The notes under the pieces were generated by a model. That model saw nothing but the letters and a program-made list of their open reading frames with translations. It had not been told where the DNA came from and did not search any database. The position numbers and the translations under genes are program-made. Below, one piece after another: positions 12,036 to 17,317 of a DNA stretch of 48,491 nt (its first letter is position 1; every line of letters starts with the position of its first letter). This stretch comes from an uncultured Verrucomicrobia subdivision 3 bacterium (lineage in GTDB: Bacteria; Verrucomicrobiota; Verrucomicrobiia; Limisphaerales; UBA11358), in NCBI GenBank assembly GCA_903888765.1, contig CAISVF010000131.1:1-48491 (forward strand), given 5' to 3'.

Positions 12036-12830
12036 ATGATTGCATACCTTGATTTGCTGCGACACGTGCGCCGGAACGGGAAGTTCAAAGCTGACCGCAC
12101 CGGGACAGGCACATATTCCTTATTTGGCGCACAAATCCGCTGTTCGTTGCGCGACTCATTTCCAATCCTGACCACGAAGAAAGTCCACACCAAGTCCATC
12201 ATTTACGAACTGCTCTGGTTTTTGCGCGGAGAGACCAATATCGCCTGGTTAAAACAGCATGGCGTTTCCATTTGGGACGAATGGGCGGATCAGCATGGCA
12301 ATCTGGGCCGGGTCTATGGCGCACAATGGACTGGCTGGCGGACTGCCGACGGGCGATCTCTTAACCAGATTGACGACGTCATCACCCAGATAAAAAAAAA
12401 TCCCGACAGCCGGCGGTTGATTGTCAGTGCCTGGAATCCAGGAGAAATTCAGGGAATGGCGCTGCCGCCGTGCCATACATTATTCCAGTTTTATGTCAGT
12501 GAGGGCGAATTGAGCTGCCAACTTTACCAGCGCAGTGCAGATATTTTCCTCGGGGTGCCTTTCAACATTGCCAGCTATGCGCTGCTCACGCGCATGGTCG
12601 CGCAAGTTTGCGGCCTGAAACCAGGCGATTTTGTGCACACTTTCGGAGATTTACATCTTTACGCGAACCATGTGGAGCAAGCGGATTTGCAACTTACGCG
12701 AGAAACACGCGCCCTGCCGAACTTGAAATTAAATCCACAGGTGAAGGACATTCACGATTTTACGTTCGAAGATTTTGAACTGGTGGGCTACGACCCGCAT
12801 CCGCCCATCAAGGCGCCGGTGGCCGTATGA
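12036..12830 (+). CDS. thyA: Thymidylate synthase
   Basis: [62 protein letters not shown]. Confidence 0.97.
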
Positions 12831-12954: not shown

Positions 12955-13530
12955 TCACACCCGCTCTGCCAGCGCTGCTTTGCTCTGATTCCAAACTGCC
13001 TCGTGCAGGGAATTGCCATGGGAATCAATCGTCACCACTGCCGGGAAATCTACCACGGCAAGTTCCCATATTGCTTCGGGCGACCCGAATTTTTCGAGAA
13101 AATAAACCTGGTTCACTTTTTTAACGCACTCCGCCAGCACTTGGGCGGCTCCGCCGATGCCGTGCAAATAAACGCAGCCGTATTCTTTGCACGCCGCTTG
13201 CGTTTTTGCCCCCATGCCGCCCTTGCCAATGACGCCCCGCAAGCCAAAGTCGCGGATGACCTGCCACTGGTAGGGCTCCTCGCGGATGGAGGTCGTGGGA
13301 CCGGCGGCGGTGCAGCGGTAACTTCCATCGGCTTGTTTCATCATCACCGGCCCGCAGTGGTAGATGATGCCGTCTTGAAAACTGACGCCATCCGGCAGCG
13401 CTCCGCCTTCGTGCAGGTATTTGTGGACCGCGTCGCGACCGGTAAACACGGTGCCGGAAATCAGCACCTCATCGCCCATTTTCAAGGCGCGGATTTTTTC
13501 TTCGGTGAAGGGGAAGGATAAGTTAATCAT
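12955..13530 (-). CDS. Class I fumarate hydratase, beta (C-terminal) subunit
   Basis: ALKMGDEVLISGTVFTGRDAVHKYL, IIYHCGPVM, AAGPTTSIREEPYQ, GVIGKGGMG: TtdB/FumA-C-type family. Confidence 0.92.
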   Translation of the reverse strand: MINLSFPFTEEKIRALKMGDEVLISGTVFTGRDAVHKYLHEGGALPDGVSFQDGIIYHCGPVMMKQADGSYRCTAAGPTTSIREEPYQWQVIRDFGLRGVIGKGGMGAKTQAACKEYGCVYLHGIGGAAQVLAECVKKVNQVYFLEKFGSPEAIWELAVVDFPAVVTIDSHGNSLHEAVWNQSKAALAERV

Positions 13531-13566
13531 AATAAATTAATTTGGATTAGGAGATGAAAATCGGTT

Positions 13567-15084
13567 TTAGAACAGTTCTTTGCGCACAATCTTAAAAACA
13601 TAAGCCACCTCACCAGGTCTGGTCGGCGGCGTCGCAATGCTCAAGCCGGCTTTAGTCATTTCCCATTTCAGCTCCTTTCCATCACCCAGCATGGTGATGG
13701 AGGCGATTTCTGATGGGTAGAGACCCGGCCAGTTGAACTTCGGGGCGAGGCTCTTGATGAGAATTTTTTCCCCCGGCCAAGCCAGGGCCGTGGCATACAA
13801 AATGTTGCTCTTACTCGTGAAGCGGATGTCCTCGCCCGTGTATTGAAGATGATTATTCTCGTTGAAATTACTGCCCTTGCTGCTTTTCTTCGTCAACTGC
13901 GTCGGGCCTTCGCCGGCGATTTCCCAGGGCACCGTGCCGTAAATCGCCTCCCCGTTGATCTTTAGCCAGGCACCCATGCCGAGCAGCAGCGCTTTCGCCG
14001 CATCGGGAATCGTGCCATCTGGCTTCGGGCCGACATTGAGCAGCAGATAGCCGTTCTTGCTCACGTGGTCCACGAGATTTACGACAAGATTCGCCACTGT
14101 TTTGTAGCTTTGATTCTGCACATAGCCCCAGGCTTCACCATCGTCCACGGTGGAATCAGTAATCCAGTCGTAATAGGTCAGGTCATTTTCCTGTCCCAAT
14201 TCCAAATCCAGCAAACCCGCTCCCGGTGGAAGATGATGAAACTTGTAAGTGGCGACGACCTCCTTATGTTCCGCAGCCGCATGATTGTAATAATATGCCA
14301 GCATTTCCTGCTTATAACTGTCAGCGATTCCGTTCAACCCAAAGTCGAACCAGACGAAATCCGGGTCGTACTTGTCAATGACCTCAACGATTTTATTTTT
14401 CCAATCGTCGAGAAAAGCCTTGGTGGGCACCGCGCCCGATGGATGAATCGGTCCATAAAGGCCAGAGTATTGCGGATTACCGCAATCTAAATTGGAGTTC
14501 CACGTCGGGAAATACCACCAGTTTTCCGCATGATGAAATGCCGTGACGAACTTCATATTATGCTTCTTGATGGCGACGGCCAGTTCGCCGACCACGTCAC
14601 GCTTGGGTCCCATTTTGGCTGCGTTCCAATCAGAATATTTGGTGTCCCACAGGCAAAATCCATCGTGATGCACCGCCACCGGTCCAGCAAAACGCGCGCC
14701 TGCCTTATGGAACAGGTCCGCCCATTCCTCGGCGTTAAACTTTTCGCCGGTGAAATGTGGGATGAAATCCTTGTAGCCGAATTTCTCCAGCGGACCGTAA
14801 GTCGCCTCCCAATATTTCCGTTCCGGGCTATTGGTTTGGTTATAGGCGTGATTGGCAAACCAGGTAGCGTTTGGCCCCTGTGCCGGCACGGCATAAACCC
14901 CCCAGTGGGTGTAGATACCAAATTTCCCGTCGCGCAACCACTGTGGCGTGGTTCGGTGGCCAAGTGAATTCCAATTGGCCTGATAAGATTCGGCAGGCAT
15001 CAACGCTCCGTCGGCCATGGGCAGTGACGCAGCCATTGCCAGCAACAGGAGTAGCGCGCGGTGGATGAGCAGGGAATACTTCAC
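13567..15084 (-). CDS. Secreted GH29 alpha-L-fucosidase
   Basis: Signal peptide; WLRDGKFGIYTHWGVYAVPAQGPNATWFANHAY, AVHHDGFCLWDTKYSDWNAAKMGPKRDVVGEL, DFVWFDFGLNGI, NGYLLLNVGPKPDGTIP. Confidence 0.93.
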   Translation of the reverse strand: MKYSLLIHRALLLLLAMAASLPMADGALMPAESYQANWNSLGHRTTPQWLRDGKFGIYTHWGVYAVPAQGPNATWFANHAYNQTNSPERKYWEATYGPLEKFGYKDFIPHFTGEKFNAEEWADLFHKAGARFAGPVAVHHDGFCLWDTKYSDWNAAKMGPKRDVVGELAVAIKKHNMKFVTAFHHAENWWYFPTWNSNLDCGNPQYSGLYGPIHPSGAVPTKAFLDDWKNKIVEVIDKYDPDFVWFDFGLNGIADSYKQEMLAYYYNHAAAEHKEVVATYKFHHLPPGAGLLDLELGQENDLTYYDWITDSTVDDGEAWGYVQNQSYKTVANLVVNLVDHVSKNGYLLLNVGPKPDGTIPDAAKALLLGMGAWLKINGEAIYGTVPWEIAGEGPTQLTKKSSKGSNFNENNHLQYTGEDIRFTSKSNILYATALAWPGEKILIKSLAPKFNWPGLYPSEIASITMLGDGKELKWEMTKAGLSIATPPTRPGEVAYVFKIVRKELF

Positions 15085-15097
15085 GGCGCGGTTATTT

Positions 15098-15976
15098 TTA
15101 ATACAACCACTGCTCTATTTTGCCCTCATTGCAAAGCCTCACGCCTTGCCGACGGAAGGCCCAGCACATGTAGCTCACGCTTACGAAATAAGAAGCCGGC
15201 ACCCGGTTAGCGACGCAAATTTTAACCCCCAAAAGAGTGGTCTTGCCGCCAAAACCCATCGGGCCGATGCCCAGTTCATTGGCGGTTTTCAGGATATCCT
15301 GCTCCAAGGCGTCCAGCTTAGGCTCGGGATTACGGTCATCGAGCAAGCGCAGCAATTGGGTTTTGGAAAGTTCATAGCCCGTCGCCCGGTCACCACCGAT
15401 GCACACGCCGAGGACGCCTGGTCCGCAGCCCTTGCCCTGGGCCTGTAATATCGCGTCAAGAATCGCTTTGCGGCAGCCGTCCAGGTCGCGGTTTGCGTGC
15501 AGCGCGTCATCCGGGAGTGAATATTGCGCGCCAACATTCTCGCAGCCGCCGCCCTTGAGTACGAGTCTGACACTCACCACAGCGGAACGATGCTGGTGAA
15601 AATGGAACGCCGGTGCGCCTGGCCCCACGTTCGTGCCATCGTTTTTTCCGGTTAGTGAATCCACCGAGTTCTGTCGAAGAAAGCCCTTTTTGGTCGCCAA
15701 CGTCACGGCCTCCCTCGCAGTTTCGGCAAACGCAATCTGGTCGTAGCCGACTGGTGCGTCCACATAAAACAATATGCTACCGGTGTCCTGGCAGATGGGC
15801 TGGGATTTGTTTTTTGCCAGAGCGATGTTCTGGTCAATGATTTTGAAGGCATTGGCCGCAAGGGAATTTTTCTGTTCGTTTTCCAAAGAGGCAAGAATGG
15901 CGCGATGCACGTCATCGGGAATTTCAGCAGAAGTGCGGCGGATGAGTTCGACTAGGGAATCAAGCAAATGGCTCAT
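15098..15976 (-). CDS. Class I fumarate hydratase, alpha (N-terminal, 4Fe-4S) subunit
   Basis: PICQDTGSILFYVDAPVG, GKNDGTNVGPGAPAFHFHQ, LKGGGCENVG, GKGCGPGVLGVCIGGDR, ELGIGPMGFGGKTTLLGVKI. Confidence 0.94.
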   Translation of the reverse strand: MSHLLDSLVELIRRTSAEIPDDVHRAILASLENEQKNSLAANAFKIIDQNIALAKNKSQPICQDTGSILFYVDAPVGYDQIAFAETAREAVTLATKKGFLRQNSVDSLTGKNDGTNVGPGAPAFHFHQHRSAVVSVRLVLKGGGCENVGAQYSLPDDALHANRDLDGCRKAILDAILQAQGKGCGPGVLGVCIGGDRATGYELSKTQLLRLLDDRNPEPKLDALEQDILKTANELGIGPMGFGGKTTLLGVKICVANRVPASYFVSVSYMCWAFRRQGVRLCNEGKIEQWLY

Positions 15977-16183: not shown

Positions 16184-17317
16184 GTGCCCATGGGCACAAA
16201 AATTCAACGCATCGGCATTCTTACTGCAGGCGGCGACAGCCCCGGACTCAACGCTGCCATTCGCGGCGTCGGGAAAGCGGCGCTTTACCACAACATGGAA
16301 ATCGTCGGTTTCCGTGATGGCTTTCGTGGTCTGGTGGAAAATCGCCGCCTGAAACTGGATCGCTCCACCCTCGCCGGCATTCTTACGGTGGGAGGCACCA
16401 TTCTCGGCACCAGCCGAGACAAGCCGCATCGCATGGTCATTGATGGCCGCACCAAGGACATGACGGAGGTCATCAAAAAAAATTACGAGGAGTGGGGGCT
16501 GGACTGCGTCGTTTGTCTGGGCGGCGGGGGCACCCAAAAAAACGCGCTGCGGCTCAAGCAGGCAGGACTTAATGTCATCACGCTGCCCAAGACAATTGAC
16601 AATGACGTGGGGATGACCGATGCCACATTTGGCTTTGCCACTGCGCTGGATATTGCCACCGACACCCTGGACCGGCTCCACAGCACGGCGCACAGTCATC
16701 ACCGGATCATCGTGGCGGAGATCATGGGCCATCGTGCCGGATGGTTAACTTTGGGCGCAGGAATTGCGGGCGGGGCGGATGTCATTTTAATACCGGAAAT
16801 TCCCTATAATGTGGAGAAAATTGCCGAAGCCATCCGCCGCCGCAGCCGGCGCGGGACCAACTTCAGCATTGTGGCAGTGGCCGAAGGGGCGATGAGCCAG
16901 GACGATGCCCGGGCTATGGCGGCAGCTGAGAAAAAACTGGAACGTGCCAGGACGCTGCACGATAAAAAGGAGGCCAAAGTAGAAATTGCCACCCTTGAGG
17001 TGCGTCACCAAGGCAATACCCTGCGGCTCGCCAAACAATTGGAAGAACTCACCCACCTCGAATCCCGCGTTACCATACTCGGCTATGTACAGCGCGGCGG
17101 CACCCCCTGCGCAGCAGACCGCATTCTGGCCACCCGGCTGGGCAGTGCGTGCGCCGATTTGATTTCGGACGAAATATTCGGCGTGATGGTGGCGGCGCGG
17201 GGAGACGGCACGGAAGCGGTGCCTTTGGAGAAAGTCGCCGGCAAGCGCAAGGTAGTGCCAATTGACCACTCTTGGATCCAAACCGCCCGCCATGTGGGCA
17301 CCTGTTTGGGAGATTGA
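16184..17317 (+). CDS. 6-phosphofructokinase (PfkA superfamily)
   Basis: [68 protein letters not shown] start at 16184 or ATG at 16190. Confidence 0.94.

Follow-up and report, generated by a model that had tools for sequence, protein, structure and literature searches.

Genes that encode the subunits of one enzyme are a textbook case of genes that stay together. In a 48,491-nucleotide stretch of DNA from an uncultured bacterium of Verrucomicrobia subdivision 3 (the window), a gene for a GH29 family glycosidase lies between the genes for the alpha and beta subunits of a class I fumarase. How did the glycosidase gene come to lie there, and does its position reflect a shared function or the way in which genes enter this part of the genome? 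The locus is compared here with a set of 49 genomes of the same family and with a wider clade, defined from the names of the relatives as Limisphaerales / Verrucomicrobia subdivision 3.

Genes of the interrupted fumarase operon

Three intact reading frames lie head to tail and co-oriented on the minus strand. The first encodes the alpha subunit of a class I (Fe-S) fumarate hydratase (15098..15976; 292 aa, ATG start). It is followed by a 13-nt spacer (15085..15097), which holds no relic of the beta 5' end or the alpha 3' end, and by a gene for a 505-aa GH29 family glycosidase of the alpha-L-fucosidase type (13567..15084; GTG start). A 36-nt spacer (13531..13566), partly common to the relative G030 (AATTAATTT..), separates this gene from that of the beta subunit (12955..13530; 191 aa, ATG start). 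The order, strand and both gap lengths of the original prediction match the open reading frames exactly. On the plus strand, the phosphofructokinase gene pfk (16184..17317) is divergent from alpha and is a conserved ancestral neighbour outside the insertion, and a thymidylate synthase gene (12036..12830), convergent with beta, occupies the place held by lplA in many relatives. A promoter and terminator scan of the region found sites no more numerous than in shuffled sequence.

The two flanking genes had been taken for the subunits of one enzyme rather than parts of different enzymes, and the Pfam and NCBIfam assignments bear this out. Alpha matches PF05681 (Fumerase; E 3e-67, 227 bits against a curated cut-off of 25), beta matches PF05683 (Fumerase_C; E 1e-55, 189 bits against 22), and the subunits exceed the NCBIfam cut-offs of TIGR00722/TIGR00723. 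The Fe-S cysteines of CQDTG, KGC and CWAFRR are kept in alpha when it is aligned to the solved fumarate hydratase chain 7xky_A. In subunits, domains and Fe-S cysteines the window genes are like those of two-subunit class I fumarase operons (TIGR00722/TIGR00723), but here they are parted by the gene of a predicted exported glycosidase. With respect to fumarase versus tartrate dehydratase specificity, the equivalog cut-offs of both are unreached (207.8 against 276; 163.6 against 365). The window genome, a 621-contig assembly, has one class I alpha and one class I beta gene and no class II fumarase match above cut-off, so the alpha/beta enzyme is likely a fumarase rather than a tartrate dehydratase. 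A class II fumarase as a back-up enzyme was considered and rejected, as the sole strong match in the genome belongs to the aspartate ammonia-lyase family.

The glycosidase matches PF01120 (Alpha_L_fucos; E 1e-95) and PF16757 (Fucosidase_C; E 6e-10), both above the curated Pfam cut-offs; it matches no NCBIfam model. Its best solved GH29 matches are structures of BpGH29 (7snk, 353 bits; 7ljj, 350 bits), and ordinary fucosidases rank lower. Because BpGH29 is an exo-alpha-L-galactosidase, "fucosidase" is here the name of a family and not a shown specificity. The likeness to BpGH29 of Bacteroides plebeius (PDB 7snk; PMC12316285) extends across the whole of the catalytic and C-terminal domains; however, BpGH29 comes from a porphyran utilisation locus (PMC12316285), whereas the window gene stands alone inside a fumarase operon and its activity is predicted. 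The putative nucleophile is Asp247 (codon 14346-14344, minus strand), within WFDFG. An N-terminal stretch that resembles a signal peptide when judged by eye (MKYSLLIHRALLLLLAMAASLPMADG; 15007..15084, minus strand) suggests that the product is exported. The GTG start is backed by the orthologue of G030 (MKYF.. versus MKYS..), and the base composition of the gene (GC 0.53, GC3 0.64) is like that of its neighbours. The gene has no PADLOC match and is neither a selfish nor a defence gene. The window genome as a whole is strongly glycan-degrading: the GH29 protein has 43 matches in it at E <0.001.

The glycosidase gene as an insertion

The ancestral order, as seen in relatives, is pfk (minus strand), alpha-beta, and lplA (minus strand), with an alpha-beta gap of 1-79 nt and no GH29 gene between the subunit genes; the pfk|alpha side of this context is kept in the window. 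A synteny comparison had been proposed as a check on the insertion, and the relatives show adjacent subunit genes rather than an ancient stable block that includes GH29. Orthologues of the glycosidase (79-81% identical) occur in three of the 49 family genomes: the window genome, G030 and G017. The G030 gene (81% identical) lies directly before beta, 3' of a toxin-antitoxin-like DUF4258/DUF2283 pair. The G017 gene lies away from fumarase, after genes for a 3-keto-disaccharide hydrolase and a GFO/IDH/MocA oxidoreductase. Linkage of GH29 to beta is thus found in 2/49 genomes, and the alpha-GH29 junction in the window genome only. Both junctions of the window GH29 are clean, without a duplicate of the alpha 3' or beta 5' end beside the gene, and no transposase lies near it. 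This distribution supports, with good confidence, insertion of GH29 into an ancestral alpha-beta operon.

The original prediction had offered a recent insertion as one explanation of the arrangement. The insertion holds, given the adjacent genes of relatives, the ancestral pfk|alpha side and the presence of GH29 in only three genomes; "recent" needs qualifying because the GH29-beta linkage is common to the window genome and G030. A tree of accC places these two genomes relative to each other with weak support, so that common descent and exchange of the linkage are both possible.

An artefact of assembly or binning would also produce a junction of this kind, as the assembly is fragmented into 621 contigs and the alpha-GH29 junction occurs in a single genome. 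This explanation is highly improbable: GH29-beta is independently present in G030, the pfk-alpha side agrees with relatives, the stretch contains no gaps or unresolved bases, and the composition of GH29 is like that of its neighbours.

Inserts and duplicated gene ends at the alpha-beta junction of relatives

Alpha-beta separation is unusual across bacteria generally, and to that extent the split was rightly described as unusual; the description fits the clade only in part, as many of its genomes have something between the subunit genes. Alpha loci were tallied and placed on a tree (n=81: the window and 80 named loci). Alpha and beta are adjacent at 23/81 loci, and an unrelated insert of 0.4-5.5 kb, the window included, separates the two at 19/81. 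At a further 23/81 loci beta is absent for at least 5 kb from alpha, and the remaining 16/81 are undecidable because of a contig edge. Given the well-supported branches in the tree of the 81 alphas, the label "insert" must have changed at least nine times. At L074-L088, beta has been relocated to a position 58-60 nt 3' of recN, and alpha is then followed by aroE where the sequence past alpha is readable. The genomes with a recN-linked beta (G005, G006, G009, G013, G014, G015, G019, G029 and G035) have the subunit genes at separate loci, and in G013 (L087) a foreign sulfatase gene lies 47 nt upstream of the relocated beta.

Most inserts consist of toxin-antitoxin, restriction-modification or other defence genes. 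They include MazF/PemK modules (L144, L056, L057, L132, L127, L168), DUF4258 with DUF2283 (L105, L056, L072), PIN proteins (L120, L126, L127), Zeta-type kinases of the Zeta toxin kind (L128, L149), GmrSD nucleases (L132, L165), a type II restriction-modification pair with a ParE toxin (L143), a ResIII/Mrr enzyme (L148), a KAP NTPase (L127) and a Schlafen-AlbA protein (L111); the assignments at L057, L056 and L138 (a MazG/NUDIX pair) come from similarity to other loci or from weak matches. Metabolic genes are rarer among the inserts: a DctA dicarboxylate symporter (L062, L183), PhoD (L166) and GH29 (the window and L072). A GH42-like protein is found together with an IS200-type transposase at L118, the only such transposase among the annotated insert genes, which have no transposase or integrase in common.

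The contents of the inserts bear on whether selection placed GH29 at fumarase for joint expression of glycan use and fumarase/C4 metabolism, the second of the two explanations originally proposed. The three window genes share one orientation and have short gaps, a DctA-type symporter lies between alpha and beta in two other lineages (L062, L183), and the sulfatase of L087 lies just upstream of beta. A functional operon is nevertheless improbable. GH29 is found at fumarase in 2/49 family genomes, the G017 orthologue resides in a sugar cluster, dozens of further GH29-like matches are present in the window genome, and most inserts elsewhere are unrelated to sugars or C4 acids. These observations speak against the proposal that fucose use is co-regulated with a C4-dicarboxylate step. 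Only for the DctA inserts is a functional link to fumarase plausible.

Twelve genomes have decaying duplicates of beta 5' or alpha 3' ends (relics) beside their inserts, as found by searches with nucleotide profiles of each end. Fourteen partial extra copies of the beta 5' end lie between alpha and intact beta in 10 genomes; where beta is off the contig or elsewhere, relics downstream of alpha were counted, and L127, L133 and L146 have no intact beta in the DNA read. The copies are at L105, L111, L127 (three), L132 (two), L133, L143, L146, L149, L056 (two) and L057. Most begin at the start codon and end between nt 50 and 103, and one spans nt 67-127. A second profile match indicates that the L133 relic once reached about nt 147 and later lost an inner piece; the weakest relics are those of L111 and L146 (E ~1e-6). 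The alpha 3' end is repeated behind the inserts of L128 (190 nt, 92%), L138 (198 nt, 88%) and L127 (129 nt, 95%). Copies longer than 50 nt thus place a cassette between intact beta and a beta relic at L105, L132, L143, L149, L056 and L057, and between intact alpha and an alpha 3' copy at L127, L128 and L138. L127 (10751-15714; Pedosphaera sp. Baikal-deep-G230) is an archive of successive insertions, in which alpha is followed by a PIN gene, the 129-nt alpha 3' copy, a KAP NTPase gene and three beta 5' relics; the relics are spaced by about 820 and 872 nt, and a MazF-type gene lies in one of these intervals. At L111 (10236-11478), and in a matching part of L036, the stretch of about 1.2 kb between the beta 5' relic and beta, read in one frame, is a short degenerate repeat (..LAPVGTPLAPKKPNL..) that may be a repeat array.

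An account of these relics by site-specific integration into the 5' end of beta was rejected, since their ends vary between nt 50 and 127 of beta; neither an integrase nor a fixed attachment core was seen among the annotated insert genes. Also rejected was a MazF-type cassette that generally duplicates the 5' end of the next gene: across about 30 MazF-type loci, beta-type relics occur at fumarase only.

Traces of a similar kind are present away from fumarase. G031 has a relic of the sucC 3' end, and at L125 (12810-14303) another gene is interrupted by an insert that matches an HNH-type nuclease and is enclosed by a 208-nt direct duplication (87%). MazF-like genes in two unrelated settings, L227 (G056) and L231 (G006), have direct repeats of about 80-135 nt on either side, possibly the same kind of insertion scar.

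Is the fumarase junction a preferred site, or does the clade tolerate split operons and keep random insertions wherever both genes survive? Two gene pairs serve for comparison; leuC/leuD could not, as the clade has no leuC match. The pair accB-accC, a neighbour of fumarase in the window, is unsplit in 30/30 genomes, its genes 19-98 nt apart, and differs from fumarase in splitting (Fisher P 1.5e-10, phylogeny not corrected for). Of 59 genomes examined for sucC and sucD, 24 have the two genes close together, 22 have 0.4-6.5 kb between them, and in 13 they are incomplete or lie on different contigs. The frequent splitting of sucC-sucD shows that fumarase is not the only labile pair, and its similar rate means that a general tolerance of split operons in the clade accounts for part of the effect. 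The sucC-sucD inserts are mostly one recurring block, a glyoxalase-fold gene with a 164-aa gene that has no Pfam match (L184-L203), and no sucD 5' relics lie beside them. The variety of inserts is greater at fumarase. Among direct-repeat pairs of at least 82% identity in 1.22 Mb of loci, a threshold chosen after the list was seen and with pairs between relics excluded, 8/15 touch the fumarase genes, which make up 7.6% of the DNA (binomial 4e-6, a value that ignores phylogeny). That there is no hotspot is therefore possible but rather unlikely: the splitting of sucC-sucD and the scars of G031 and L125 speak for it, and the unsplit accB-accC, the diversity of the fumarase inserts and the clustering of relics there speak against it.

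A proposed route of insertion and its significance

The reading preferred here, which is probably correct, is that GH29 was taken up at a recurrent cassette-accepting boundary of the fumarase operon, where the cassettes of many relatives entered with a long target duplication. An ancestral two-gene alpha-beta operon would have gained the glycosidase gene at its internal boundary, the beta 5' end being the recurrent insertion point in relatives. There, the entry of many cassettes would copy one gene end, over about 60-150 nt in the case of beta (5' end) or 130-200 nt in the case of alpha (3' end). As the end of a gene is copied during insertion, both fumarase genes would stay intact and a dying duplicate would be left across the cassette. 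The window GH29 would be metabolic cargo at the same boundary, with a source that was probably a carbohydrate-gene cluster like the one holding the G017 orthologue. It may have been gained before the G030 lineage or by exchange with it. Since GH29 has no duplicated gene end beside it and is not a selfish or defence gene, its entry by the route of the toxin-antitoxin cassettes is only inferred. Co-orientation and short gaps make a single alpha-GH29-beta message the simplest reading of the locus; its GH29 product would be exported, and the two fumarase subunits would assemble in the cytoplasm as usual.

A serious rival to target duplication, though one with a modest chance of being right, is one-sided homologous recombination, in which a donor cassette with its beta gene pairs with the recipient beta and the other end joins illegitimately in the old beta 5' end. 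The relics of L105, L132b and L111 match a beta from a different genome better than the intact beta next to them, as such exchange would predict. In five genomes a beta start lies 13-14 nt after the end of the same MazF-type gene; this beta is intact in G012, G032 and G023 and a relic in G010 and L127, and four of the five have another beta 5' relic on the upstream side of the module. The alpha 3' duplicates on the other side of the inserts (L127, L128, L138) would require a mirror event, and thus favour target duplication over donor recombination.

A wider claim can be made only tentatively: the fumarase junction may be the preferred target of an undescribed Limisphaerales mobility process that always re-forms both subunit genes. 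Such a process would carry cassettes of toxin-antitoxin, restriction and defence genes, and occasionally a metabolic gene like GH29, none with its own recombinase, and would leave target duplications of 60-200 nt.

The closest parallel is found among restriction-modification systems, some of which insert with long, variable target duplications on the order of 100 bp (Nobusato et al. 2000 and Furuta et al. 2010, as cited in PMC3874152 and PMC3031569). The relatives' loci are alike in combining selfish or defence cassettes with variable duplications of about 100 bp, and the L143 insert is itself a type II restriction-modification pair. In contrast, the relatives' inserts are mostly toxin-antitoxin and other defence genes gathered at one operon junction across an order, their relics affect both gene ends and form arrays of up to three, and the window GH29 has no duplication. 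Defence or toxin-antitoxin islands and integrative-element hotspots also occur in core genes, for example at tRNA or rlmH sites. In these, as at the fumarase junction, accessory genes repeatedly turn over at a single conserved position; unlike integrative-element hotspots, the junction has neither an integrase nor a fixed core site. Literature searches for hotspots of insertion at fumarase, or for insertions into operons in Verrucomicrobia, yielded nothing relevant.

The single locus is a new instance of operon interruption, and the family of loci extends what is known of gene mobility. A whole bacterial order repeatedly admits foreign genes between the subunit genes of fumarase, and duplicated gene ends record how. 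The loci form a natural series on the spread of toxin-antitoxin and defence genes without transposases, and they bear on how general a route long target duplication is, a process known chiefly from restriction-modification genes. For the reading of Limisphaerales genomes, it follows that "operon partners" need not have a common function.
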